Positions 2,743 to 39,325 of a stretch of DNA of 64,000 bases are shown piece by piece (position 1 is the first letter of the stretch; the number at the start of each line of letters is the position of its first letter). Source of the stretch: Medicago truncatula (taxonomy: Eukaryota; Streptophyta; Magnoliopsida; Fabales; Fabaceae); assembly GCF_003473485.1 (NCBI RefSeq), contig NC_053042.1, positions 47,517,762-47,581,761 of the forward strand. The letters are read 5' to 3'. The notes under the pieces are model-generated. The model was not told the origin of the DNA, did no database searches, and saw only the letters and a list, made by a program, of their open reading frames with translations. A program made the position numbers and the translations under genes.

Positions 2743-3031
2743 GGGTTAATTAATATGTTTTGATCCCTATGAATATTCTGAAATTCGTTTTTTAATCCCT
2801 GCAAAATAAAATCATATTTTTTAGCCTCGCTAGCATTTTTCTTTAGGATGTTTAGGGATCAAAAATGTTGACGGAAATTTTTACAAAGACTAAAAATGTT
2901 GACGAAAATTTTATAGAGATTAAAAATACTAACACAAAATTTTATAGGGATTAAATAATGTGATTTTACTTTATAGGAACTAAAAAAGAAATTCTGAATA
3001 TTTATAGGACTAAAAACAAATTTAGCCTTGC
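2743..3031. repeat. MITE with long imperfect inverted repeats
   Basis: The left end (gggttaattaatatg, then tgatccctatgaatattctg) is mirrored by the right end (ctgaatatttataggacta, then aaatttagcc). The interior repeats variants of aaaatttt, gattaaaaa and gacgaaaa, so the whole 290 bp can fold back. No coding capacity. The class is not certain; the design resembles common short legume elements. Confidence 0.65.
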
Positions 3032-3288
3032 AAAGTAATAGTTGAGTCTTTCAAAGTATACTTTAGTTGAAATCGGGTAAATGGGTTGCTCTCTTGTTTG
3101 AGTTAAGCGATTAAAGGAGGTAAACAGTAGATGTTCAAAGTTCAAAACCTCACAAGGAAGAAAATATTAACATTCGTTCAAACCCTCTCTGGTACGCCTT
3201 GTGGCAAAGAGGTGTCTCTGTTTGTGTGATTATATACCATTTTTGTTTCTAAAAAAAACTAATATACCAACATTTGTCATTTAAAAAA

Positions 3289-5099
3289 GGCTTAAATAAG
3301 AAAAAAGGCCCTTGTAAGTTCGCGCTTTTTTGGTTTTAGTCCCTGTATCTTTTTTGTTGCGAAACAACCCCTGTATTTACTAAACATTTTGACATTCGTC
3401 CCTGCCGTGCGTTCTTGTCAAAAAAACACTTCGCTGACTAACGGACTAATACATGGCATATGATGAGTCGACAATTGGTTATTAGAGGGACTAAAACCAA
3501 AAACGAAAATTTACATAGAGACGGAAATAAAAAACATAATCATCAAAATTTGAATTTTAAAACATATTATTTCCACCTTCTTCCTCACTATGTTATTTCT
3601 CTCTTCTTCATTTATGCCATTCCCACCCTTCCATAGCTTTGCGCCCTAACACCAAAAACCCATTTTATTGAACAATGTATTCTCATTCCATTTGTCAATC
3701 ATGATGAGTTGCCAATATGTGGTTGCAGAAAAATTATGAGGATGTTCATCTCCAATTCGCATGCCATGCTGCTACAACATGGAAAATTGATAAAGAGAAA
3801 GAGCCATTAAGCATTAATATTACAACGTTTCAGAGGTAATTGAGAAAGCTTAAATTCTCACAGTTGATTGAAGCAACCAATGGCTTCTCAGCAGCAAGCC
3901 TCGTTGGTTGTGGTGGTTTTGGTGAAGTGTTTTAAGGCCACACTCAAAGACGAAACATGTGTCGCGATAAAGAAGCTCATTCGACTGAGTTGTCAAGGTG
4001 ATAGAGAATTCATGGCTGAGATGGAAACCTTAGAAAAAATCAAGCATAAAAACCTTGTCCCTTTTATTGGGATACTGCAAAGTAGGAGAAGAGAGGCTAC
4101 TTGTTTATGAATACATGGAATATGGAAGCCTAGTAGATATGCTCCACAGAAGAATAAAGACATGTGATTGACGAATTTTAACATGGGAAGAAAGGAAGAA
4201 GATTGCAAGAGGTGCTGCTATAGGACTTTGTTTTCTGCATCATAATTGCATCCCTCAGATCATACACAAAGACATGAAGTCAAGCAATGTATTACTTGAC
4301 AATGAAATGGAGTCAAGAGTCTTGAATTTCGGAATGGCAAGACTAATAAGTGCACTTGATACACATCTCAGTGTAAGCACACTAGCAGGAACACCTGGAT
4401 ATGTTCCACCAGAGTATTACCAAAGTTTCAAGTGCACTGCAAAGGGTGATGTTTATTCATTTGGTGTTGTAATGTTGGAACTTCTTAATGGGAAAAAGCC
4501 TGATGATAAGGAGGATTTTGGTGACACAAACTTGGTTGGATGGGTTAAGATTAAGGTGCACGAAGGGAAACAAATGGATGTAATTAACACTGATTTACTT
4601 TTGGAGACTCAAGGAGGAACAAATGAAGCATAACTGAAAGAAGTAATTGGCACTTATAGGCAACCCATTTGATGATGAATGAGAAATGAAATGAGAAAAC
4701 ATTGTCGAAGAAAATGGGGTTTGAGTTTTTGGGCGCAAACAATTAAAGAAAGAACATATAGAGGAAGAAGAAGGAAAGAACAGAGAGAGGAAGAAGAAGG
4801 AAAGACTGGTTTTTTAAATTTAAAAATTGATGATTACGTTTTTTTAAATTAGTCCCTATGTTAAATTGCGTTTTTGGTTTTAGTCCCTGTACTAACCTCA
4901 GTCATCAACTAGTGCCAACTCACGAAGTGCCACGTATTGCTCCGTTAGCCAGGTCATCGTTTTTTTTTCACAGAATTGGACGGCATGGACTAGATCCAAA
5001 ACGTTTAGTAAATACAGGGTTTGTCTCGCAACAAAAAAATTTACAGGGACTAAAACAAAAAATGCACCAACTTACATGGACCTTTTACTTATTTAAGCC
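3289..5099. mobile_element. Non-autonomous Mutator-like element carrying a gene fragment (Pack-MULE type)
   Basis: Both ends start ggcttaaataag, and the termini are near-identical inverted repeats (gttttagtccctgta, then ttgttgcga, then ccctgtatttactaaac). A perfect 9-bp direct repeat, tttaaaaaa, flanks the element at 3280-3288 and 5100-5108, the target-site length typical of Mutator. The inverted similarity continues inward with more divergence (tttgcgccc, ccattttattgaacaatgt against its mirror) to about 3718 and 4657, so each arm is about 430 bp. No transposase is present. The central 940 bp is a captured receptor-kinase fragment, annotated separately. Confidence 0.9.
3719..4656 (+). pseudogene. 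Captured BRI1-like receptor kinase domain fragment (BRL2/VH1 type)
   Basis: The conceptual product is a Ser/Thr kinase domain closest, from memory, to BRI1-like 2: [20 protein letters not shown], then [75 protein letters not shown] and [14 protein letters not shown]. The copy is broken. There is a stop at QR*LRKL near 3836, a one-base gain near 3931, another near 4072 and a stop near 4168. The loop reads HKD where HRD is usual, and the DFG aspartate is replaced (LNFG). The reading ends at GGTNEA, with a stop where the parent would continue. It lacks the leucine-rich repeats, the membrane segment and the end of the C-lobe. Both limits fall at the inner ends of the element's arms. The parent gene is not in this window. 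Confidence 0.88.
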
Positions 5100-5108
5100 T
5101 TTAAAAAA

Positions 5109-27680: not shown

Positions 27681-28815
27681 CAAATACATCTTGGGTTTTT
27701 AAATTAGTCCTTTGCGTAGCAAAAATGAACACCTTAATCCTTGAATTTTCTTTTTAACTGATGGATCCCTTTTTATCATCCAATTTTGATATAGAATGTT
27801 TACATGATCATTTGACATTGAGGTAAATTTTTTAAAAAAAGTGTTCATGACAACAAACATGATCAATGATCATTTTCATATATTTTTCTTCTTATTGTTT
27901 CTTAATTCAATCATAAATTTTATAGATACACATATAAATTAGGTAATTGATCGTTCTTGTTTCAAACTAAGATTGAATAATACACGTATAAACCATAGTT
28001 TTCAGAGCGGTGGATTTAGCCCTGCAAACTTGCATATATTTTATGACTTTAAGATTAGATGTACCCTTTTACCAACATAAATGACCAATTTAAAACTAAA
28101 AATAAAAAATAAAAAAGAGTGATCTGATACAAATGGTAACTAAGTTGGTCTAATTTGTTATGGTTTGTTGTTGAACCATAATTAATTAGCCTCATGGAAG
28201 AGGGTAATTAGGAAAAGTTAACTTTTCATAATTTCGTCGTAGTAACAATCGTTGATGGAAGAAAGACTTTGAATCGATGAAGATCGAATCGTTGGTGAAG
28301 AAATGAACATTGTGTTCTTGTAAGCTTTGATTGACTCTTATGAGTTTATTTTTTTGGGTCTCCGATTCTTTTGCATCTAACGTGTTCTTCCTTGTATCCA
28401 TTTTCTTTTTTGTTTTAACTAAAGAAATAAACACATGTGCCTTTTCCTTTTTTTTTGGTAGATAGACGAAATGACAAAGCCATTATAAACTCACACACAT
28501 CCGGCCTAACAATTTCGGCATTTTTTTTTTTAATAAATACAGACTTGCCTTTTTTTAATTTGTTTAATTTATAATTACACACGTGACATCCTAATAAGTG
28601 CAACATATGCATTGACTCGATTAAAATTGATTTAGGGACCAAAAGTGCAAAATGGGCTAGACTTAGGGGTTGGGTTGTTATTGATTTTGTTATTTCTGCT
28701 ACTTAGGGGCTAAAACTGTAATTAAATCAAAAGTTAATTACTCATAAGTTATAACTTAACCTAATAGGAGAAACTGAAGGCCGCTTGTTGGAATGCACTG
28801 GTCTGGTCTTTCGAC
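27681..28815. other. Intergenic; promoter region of the intact F-box gene
   Basis: No gene recognised. The F-box gene promoter should be in the last few hundred bases. Short minus-strand frames at 28192-28642 look like chance frames. Confidence 0.45.
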
Positions 28816-29991
28816 ATGCCGCATCTTCACCACTCTCTAAACTCCCAGCGGCTGCCGGTTTTGCCGGAAGAACTCATCGTCGAGATCCTTTTGAGGCTTC
28901 CGGTGAAATCCCTTGTCCAATACAAGTGTGTTTGCAAATCATGGAAAACCCTAATCTCTGATTCCCAATTCGCAAACAATCACCACCTTCTAACCTCAAA
29001 AGCGTATCCACGATTGTTCCTTAACGATGGAGTCCACGAAATCGTATCATACCCGGTGAATTCATTGTTAGAAAACCCATCAACTCCTGTTATACCACTC
29101 GTTAGCTTCAGCTTCAGAATGGACTTGCATAGTATTCTAGGTTCATGCAATGGTTTGCTTTGTTTGTATCATATTCATACGCGTCAATGCAAATTATTGA
29201 ATCCTTCCATCCAATTGAAATCCCAAGTATCTCCAACCATTGTATTAGATTTTGAGATTATCATACATCATGGTTTTGGTTATGATCAAGTTAACCACAA
29301 GTATAAGCTACTGTTAGTTGTGCGAGATGTGGTGTATTGGGATCTTGAACCTATGACTAGAATTTATACCTTTGGTGAAAATTCTTGGAAATCTCTTCCA
29401 AATTTCCCGTGTCTTCCTCATAGGGGTTTAGGGGTATATGTGAGTGGCACTTTGAATTGGATAGTTGCTAAAGATGGTGTCAATTCTAATCAATGTGTGA
29501 TTATTTCCATTGATCTTGAGAAAGAAAATTACGGGGAAGTGTTGCTACCTCAACATGATGATGCTCACAATGTACGCTATTCTGGATTGAATGTGTTGAG
29601 TAACTGCCTTTCTGTGTGTTTTGATCATTCTAAGGAAAGTCATTGGATTGTATGGATGATGAAAGAGTATGGAGTTGCTAAGTCATGGACTAAATTGTTT
29701 ATCATCCCTCACGACAAGTTCAAGTTTAGGCATCTTTTTGTTGACCCTTTGTTCATTTCAGGAAATGGTGTTGTTTTGCTGAGAATCATCAATTTCTTAC
29801 TTTCCAAACTTGTTCTGTATAACTTATCTGATGGTAGGATGGATTATCTTCGGATTTTGGGCAAGAATGATCGGGATATACATATTTACCATGCTCAGGA
29901 TATACATAGCGACAATGGTCGGGATATACATATTCACCATGTTCGGGATATATATATTCACCATGAGAGTCTAGTATCACAGCAGTGGTAA
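28816..29991 (+). CDS. F-box protein with F-box-associated interaction domain
   Basis: Single-exon gene, 391 residues, the only intact member of the local cluster. The F-box is at about 14-60 (LPVLPEELIVEILLRLPVKS, VCKSWKTLISD), predicted to bind SKP1 and bring the protein into an SCF ubiquitin ligase. The type 1 F-box-associated domain covers about 105-345, with GSCNGLLCLYH, NPSIQLK, HGFGYDQVNHKYKLL, RIYTFGENSWKSLPNFP, VSGTLNWIVAKDG and SLVLY-like motifs. The target protein cannot be told. The C-terminus carries four copies of an 8-residue unit (residues 353-384) where the paralog at 38205 has one. The start follows the usual short leader, MPHLHHSLNSQRLPVLPEEL. Such genes form large, fast-evolving families in Medicago. 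Confidence 0.92.
   Translation: MPHLHHSLNSQRLPVLPEELIVEILLRLPVKSLVQYKCVCKSWKTLISDSQFANNHHLLTSKAYPRLFLNDGVHEIVSYPVNSLLENPSTPVIPLVSFSFRMDLHSILGSCNGLLCLYHIHTRQCKLLNPSIQLKSQVSPTIVLDFEIIIHHGFGYDQVNHKYKLLLVVRDVVYWDLEPMTRIYTFGENSWKSLPNFPCLPHRGLGVYVSGTLNWIVAKDGVNSNQCVIISIDLEKENYGEVLLPQHDDAHNVRYSGLNVLSNCLSVCFDHSKESHWIVWMMKEYGVAKSWTKLFIIPHDKFKFRHLFVDPLFISGNGVVLLRIINFLLSKLVLYNLSDGRMDYLRILGKNDRDIHIYHAQDIHSDNGRDIHIHHVRDIYIHHESLVSQQW
29872..29967 (+). repeat. Four in-frame 24-bp repeats at the F-box protein C-terminus
   Basis: Units of cgggatatacatattcacca plus four bases occur four times head to tail and encode RDIHIYHA, QDIHSDNG, RDIHIHHV and RDIYIHHE. The paralogs end in a single copy (DLHIYHESLI), so the tract is a lineage-specific expansion inside the coding sequence. 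Confidence 0.92.
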
Positions 29992-38204: not shown

Positions 38205-39325
38205 CAAGGATGCGTCTCTGGCTCCACCACTCTCTAAACGAAACCACCGCCAACAATCCATTGCCGTTCTTACCGGAAGAACTCATCGTCAACATCCTCC
38301 TGAGACTTCCAGTAAAATCACTCCTTCAATTTAAGTCTGTTTGCAAAACATGAAAAACCCTACAGTTCGCAAACAACCACCTTCAGACATCTACCACATA
38401 TCCTTCTATCATCGCCACTACTTATCCTGTCGGTGAAATAATATCATACCCTATCAAGCCATTGTTGGAAAACCCAACAACCCCTGCTGAACATCTTAAT
38501 TAGCTTCAGCACGAGACACGATATTATAGGTTCATGCAATGGGATGCTGTGTCTGTTTCATCTCGAGCAATTTTGTGTCAGTTTGTGGAATCCTTCTATC
38601 AATTTGAAATCAAAAGATCTCCAACCATTGTTTCCTCTGAACGTAAGGTCATGAGATTTCGTGGTTTTGGCTATGATCAACTTAATGACAAGTACAAAGT
38701 GGTAGTAGGTGTGTCCAGTTTGAATGATTATGCAAATACTGTGACCAGAATTTATACATTTGGTGAAAATTCTTGGAAAACACTTCATAATTTCCCGTAT
38801 TATCCTCATACATCCTCATACGTGTCATACACGTATGGGAAATCTGTGACGGGCACTTTAAATTGGATCGTTAATAAAGATGGTGTTTATTTCAATAAAG
38901 TGATTCTTTCTTTTCATCTTGATCTTGTGAAGGAAACTTATAGGGAAGTGTTGCTTCCTCAACATGATGGTTACAATGAATGTTATCATGGGTTGTTTGT
39001 TTTGAGTAACTGCCTTTGTGTTTGTTTTGATAACTTTAATGAATCTCGGAAATCTGTGTGGATGATGAAAGAGTGTGGAGTTTTTGAGTCATGGACTAAA
39101 TTCATGATCATCCCTCATGAAAAGTTACATCCTAGTTATGGGCTACAACCTTTTGTTGAACCCTTGTTCATTTCAGAAAATGGTGTAGTTATTCTACTGA
39201 CTAAGAGTACATACTATACAGTGACTTCTCAATTTATCTTATATAACATAAATAATGATGCAGTGGATTATTCTAGCACTTTTGGCAAAGTTGATCTACA
39301 TATTTACCATGAGAGTCTGATATAA
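38205..39325 (+). pseudogene. Near full-length F-box pseudogene
   Basis: A paralog of the intact gene at 28816. The F-box (LPFLPEELIVNILLRLPVKS, LLQFKSVCKT) is followed by TGA where the conserved Trp of CKSWKTL belongs (near 38352). A base gain near 38500 and a base loss near 38616 put GSCNGMLCLFHLEQFCVSLW in another frame from the rest. From about 38620 the associated domain is open to the end (GFGYDQLNDKYKVVVG, RIYTFGENSWKTLHNFPYYP, VTGTLNWIVNKDG) and finishes DLHIYHESLI at 39325. Initiation inside the remaining frame could at most make an associated-domain fragment without an F-box. The few lesions suggest recent loss. Confidence 0.85.

Follow-up and report, generated by a model that had tools for sequence, protein, structure and literature searches.

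A stretch of receptor-kinase sequence framed by two inverted repeats in Medicago truncatula raises the question of how part of a host gene came to lie inside a transposon, and of what became of it there. The window, that is, the whole stretch of 64,000 nucleotides that we analysed (G000:C1:47517762-47581761 in a 430-Mb genome), had been read from its letters alone as carrying a Mutator-like element (MULE) with a captured BRL2-type fragment. This reading gains support from a donor gene on C8, to which homology is confined between the arms. We consider it almost certain that the locus is a multicopy Pack-MULE, in which a piece of BRL2 was captured once, spread with the element, and then decayed without detectable selection on its protein.

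Architecture of the element

The element is a complete, non-autonomous Pack-MULE of 1811 bp on the forward strand (window 3289-5099), and one of at least seven copies in the genome. It opens with the 12-bp sequence GGCTTAAATAAG, the reverse complement of its final 12 bp, and closes with CTTATTTAAGCC. The sequence-only reading described its ends as identical, which is true of these terminal 12 bp and of nothing beyond them. The arms are inverted repeats of about 430 bp, the length first proposed, and in a global alignment 341 of 422 aligned columns are identical, with 36 internal gap columns. In the consensus of the copies, positions 1-438 pair with 1366-1812, corresponding to a left arm at window 3289-3721 (forward strand) and a right arm at 4651-5099 (reverse strand). 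The homology between them stops near 3716-3721 on the left and starts at 4651 on the right.

The same 9-mer, TTTAAAAAA, flanks the element on the left (3280-3288) and on the right (5100-5108). It is itself low-complexity, and equal 9-mers bounding a span of 1811 bp occur at 2 of 62171 window positions, the element's own site counted. Between the arms, the core codes for a receptor-kinase domain in broken pieces. Pfam kinase models match window 3868-4110 and 4172-4633; the best solved relative of the second piece is BRI1, and the core is BRI1/BRL-type kinase sequence. No transposase gene was found inside the element, as judged from frame lengths and from a Pfam scan of three frames. Two of the three match kinase models and the frame at 3637-3810 matches none, while the longest frame touching 3289-5099, besides the kinase-strand pieces, is 92 aa.

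A second, short element with inverted repeats, about 285 bp long and distinct from the first, lies just upstream at window 2743-3028. It starts with GGGTTAATTAATATG, ends with AAATTTAGCC, has imperfect 9-bp flanks by eye (TACAAAGTA and TGCAAAGTA), and looks like a MULE-type MITE.

Copies across the genome

A DNA search with the whole element returned at least 106 matches, with the best 40 of 405 candidates scored; copy counts are consequently lower bounds. At least seven copies carry both the arms and the kinase piece, and they are spread over five chromosomes (C1, C2, C3 twice, C4 twice and C8). The six beyond the window are at C8:7222160, C2:5738312, C3:58613230, C4:29041295, C3:1726904, which has lost its right end, and C4:2817877, which has a 336-bp deletion within the insert. 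When the longest kinase piece served as a protein query (150 of 1809 candidates scored), the same seven were recovered, together with one further place on C8, within a 1220-codon open frame, at 88% identity or more. The next best places in that search reached 66-68%.

Perfect and mutually distinct 9-bp duplications bound all six copies that keep both ends (TTTAAAAAA, TATATATAA, TAGTATAAT, TAAAATGAT, TTATTTCTA and TAGAATTTA). The target-site duplication proposed for the window copy is thus upheld both by its own equal flanks and by the other two-ended copies, each of which (5 of 5) perfectly duplicates a different 9-mer. The left junction between transposon and kinase sequence is identical in all seven copies, as is the right. 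Their flanks, compared over about 500 bp on each side, show no mutual similarity at E 1e-6, the right side of the shortened copy C3:1726904 being no true flank. The earlier proposal that the element acquired the fragment stands, but its picture of a single acquisition that moved to this place does not, as the window holds one of at least seven copies. Joined flanks were searched for the window copy, in one assembly, and no paralogous empty site was found; two weak matches (query 48-151 and 95-151) touch the junction and none spans it. The left flank of this copy also contains a repeat of 75-80 bp that is present elsewhere in the genome, including six occurrences spaced evenly, about 1376 bp apart, like a tandem array, at G000:C5:30889193-30896153.

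The arms themselves occur at many other places. A search for copies with and without the insert, which the sequence-only reading had suggested as a check, gave the six further copies with it and 12 compared arm-bearing places without kinase sequence. These 12 (L017-L028) were fetched without a prior kinase match, and the kinase part matched none of them. Interiors recur among five of them: L018 has that of L017 (89%), and the interior of L019 is found again at the L021 (93%) and L020 (88%) loci. These five kinase-free MULEs share with the BRL2 element the arms and the inner 37 bp on the left, but in place of BRL2 carry two other interiors, one in L017 and L018 and one in L019, L020 and L021. 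Some 290 kb separate L019 (G000:C8:37618247-37619907) from the donor BRL2 on C8, a proximity that may be chance. MULE transposase domains are abundant in the genome; for 30 transposase loci, out of 150 scored matches, the flanks (about 1.5 kb on each side) were compared with the element's arms, and none carries them at E 1e-3.

The donor gene and the limits of the capture

The donor is the 1220-codon open frame on C8, which is intact and encodes, from an in-frame Met, a protein of 1138 aa with leucine-rich repeats, a brassinosteroid-receptor Island domain and, at residues 843-1121, a kinase domain. Against solved structures it scores 1041 bits with BRI1-like 2, a match to the solved ectodomain, 557 with BRI1-like 3, 545 with BRI1-like 1 and 514 with BRI1. 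As the top score falls to BRI1-like 2, the predicted protein identifies the donor as BRL2. Its coding region is one uninterrupted frame throughout.

When the element is compared with the donor stretch on C8, they match only at element positions 471-1356 and the arms are unmatched. Aligning the kinase part to the native gene, another check put forward at the outset, likewise shows homology that ends within the element, short of both arms. The copies' consensus matches BRL2 over positions 476-1359, an 884-bp stretch with 857 of 884 bases identical (96.9%), 27 mismatches and no gaps. In the window, this captured fragment occupies 3759-4644 on the forward strand, the only part between the arms with donor homology. 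It is 886 bp long, against 884 bp in donor and consensus, and holds the juxtamembrane region and most of the kinase domain, frameshifted and with stops.

An insert of about 940 bp at 3719-4656 had been proposed. Its BRI1/BRL-type kinase nature is confirmed, but the limits took in 40 bp too many on the left and 12 bp too many on the right, and the left edge does not coincide with the inner arm end as had been claimed. On the left, the 37 bp inside the arm (consensus 439-475, window 3722-3758, forward strand) separate arm and insert, because they are MULE sequence also found in the kinase-free relatives L017-L021. Sharing of this inner sequence reaches consensus 469 in L017 and L018, and 475-476 in L019-L021. 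The left capture junction, as placed by these alignments, directly abuts transposon sequence and lies 37 bp in from the arm. At the right-hand end, 6 bp between consensus 1359 and 1366 (consensus 1360-1365, window 4645-4650) belong to neither the donor alignment nor the arm alignment. Microhomology at the capture junctions was considered by eye and set aside: at the left junction (CCAATTC / GCATGCC) no more than one base is common to it and to donor and relatives, and the 6 bp on the right are unassigned.

We propose that a non-autonomous Mutator-like element took up 884 bp of the C8 BRL2 gene one time, probably when donor DNA was copied into a break within it. Gap-filling and fork-stalling models for such acquisition are among those discussed in PMC8277862. 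The chimeric element then reached at least seven sites, probably mobilised in trans by a MULE transposase, and at all six sites where both ends are kept it is bounded by a 9-bp duplication. By the stop common to all seven copies, the reading frame upstream of the kinase domain had already been lost in their common ancestor, and the copies have since decayed without detectable protein selection.

State and decay of the captured kinase

Only donor residues 798-1092 of 1138 were captured, and consequently the leucine-rich repeats, the membrane span and the kinase end are absent, the last corresponding to donor residues 1093-1121. In every one of the seven copies, the same Gln codon upstream of the kinase domain has become a stop. 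The HRD motif has become HKD in six of the seven, and the seventh has a stop at that codon. Changes common to the copies in this way point to one capture, followed by amplification. The window copy is a dead insertion with further lesions of its own: single bases have been inserted at two points of its kinase part, there are two additional stops, and DFG is changed to NFG.

A stop-free run of 276 codons is nevertheless kept in three of the seven copies (C8:7.22, C2:5.74 and C3:58.6) and in the consensus. The longest Met-started frame among the copies is 219 aa and begins past the glycine loop and the catalytic lysine; in none of the seven does the longest such frame span the ATP loop or that lysine. 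An intact frame with glycine loop, catalytic lysine, HRD and DFG, as expected of a functional BRL2-type kinase, was not found.

To assess selection on the inserts, we took the substitutions by which they differ from the consensus and asked how the same base changes would fall if placed at random. Among the 107 unique substitutions, 23 are synonymous, against 25.9 expected, 75 are nonsynonymous, against 75.2, and 9 create stops, against 5.9; no protein constraint is apparent in these classes. Donor and consensus, by comparison, differ by 14 nonsynonymous changes where 18.9 are expected (P about 0.03). We infer that this shortfall results from constraint on the native gene, with both branches pooled in the comparison.

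The insert differs from the consensus by 1.0-3.3% and the arms by 2.9-3.9%. When binned, the excess in the arms is found chiefly in the outermost 200 bp of each. Per-site divergences from the consensus, calculated for the window element together with L009-L013 and L015, are 0.043-0.050 in the outer 200 bp or so, about 0.022-0.030 in the inner arms and about 0.014-0.028 in the insert. Variants present in two or more copies are likewise most frequent there: they account for 22 of the 91 events in this outer part, compared with 11 of 80 for the inner arms and 13 of 107 for the insert. Cytosine deamination was rejected as the sole cause of arm divergence because the arms exceed the insert in every context, at CG, CHG, CHH and A/T sites alike. 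Neutral rates in plants range from 6.5e-9 to 1.3e-8 per site per year, and at such rates a divergence of 2-3% from the consensus would translate, as an estimate only, into roughly 1.5 to 5 million years. The best reading of the inserts is that they are passive cargo in neutral decay.

Alternative explanations

Some observations count against capture, spread and decay as the explanation. These are the 276-codon stop-free kinase frame in three of seven copies; the lower divergence of insert than arms, though the substitution classes do not indicate protein constraint; the nonsynonymous shortfall between donor and consensus; the absence of the arms at 30 transposase loci; and the lack of an empty site for the window copy. 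The first of these would also suit a functional, domesticated protein, for instance a cytoplasmic BRL2-like decoy, all the more as the consensus keeps the frame too. We regard domestication as very improbable, given the stop upstream of the kinase domain in every copy, the late start of the 219-aa frame, the loss of HRD in all seven (to HKD or a stop), the missing kinase end and the fit of the substitutions to neutral expectation. That a processed (reverse-transcribed) or duplicated BRL2 pseudogene merely happened to end up flanked by two separate MULEs, or solo arms, in inverted orientation is scarcely credible. Missing introns are uninformative here, since BRL2 is a single frame and a DNA copy cannot be told from a retrocopy by their absence. 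What speaks against chance is the repetition of the arm-insert-arm layout with the same two junctions in all seven copies, the distinct duplications that bound the whole unit wherever both ends survive, and homology that begins and stops within coding sequence.

Action at the RNA level is also improbable, though less so than either of these. Read-through or hairpin transcripts of the copies could yield small RNAs that match the native gene and lower its expression. Each of the seven dispersed copies shares between 167 and 370 exact 21-mers with the BRL2 coding sequence, and for maize, captured sequences have been described as reservoirs of siRNA able to silence donor genes (PMC13317346). Yet the kinase piece sits in the loop rather than in the inverted arms, and a simple hairpin would for this reason yield small RNAs from the arms. 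We speculate that transcripts started in an arm or a neighbouring gene might give rise to small RNAs matching BRL2, such that the Pack-MULE family would tune BRL2 in trans with a copy number that varies among accessions, a scenario to which we give little weight.

Relation to known Pack-MULEs

The element that captured and spread BRL2 sequence belongs among Mutator-like (TIR-MULE) elements by its long inverted repeats of about 430 bp and its 9-bp duplications, found in six of six two-ended copies. It is a Pack-MULE by its 884-bp internal fragment of a non-transposon host gene whose donor is intact on C8. Pack-MULEs have been defined and counted in rice, Arabidopsis, tomato and maize (PMC3310237; also PMC8277862, PMC8903248). 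As outlined there, they too are non-autonomous MULEs with long inverted arms around a host-gene fragment, its donor kept elsewhere, and are multicopy with distinct target duplications. The present case differs in host and donor gene, and no new mechanism was found in it. A close parallel is PM-ZIBP, a tomato Pack-MULE family of 14 copies (PMC3310237), in which a single captured gene fragment was likewise amplified to many copies. PM-ZIBP has tandem arms in 13 of its 14 copies, whereas the BRL2 element has one arm pair. No paper on a BRL2 Pack-MULE was found among titles and the starts of abstracts, which is not proof of absence, and the account of the Mt4.0 release (PMC4234490) has the term Pack-MULE only in its reference list.

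The BRL2 element is an ordinary, well-documented case of transposon gene capture, and leaves the picture of what Pack-MULEs are unchanged. A single assembly offers the donor, seven copies of the element, sibling elements whose interiors differ and junctions resolved to the base, and a case so fully anchored is a useful worked example of how Pack-MULEs acquire DNA. It also calls for caution in gene annotation, because the 276-codon kinase frame in three copies could pass for a receptor-kinase gene.

Elsewhere in the window are an F-box/FBA_1 frame (28768-29991), a second frame with FBA_1 only (38504-39325), and an open frame matching fatty acid hydroxylase PF04116 (21303-21869).
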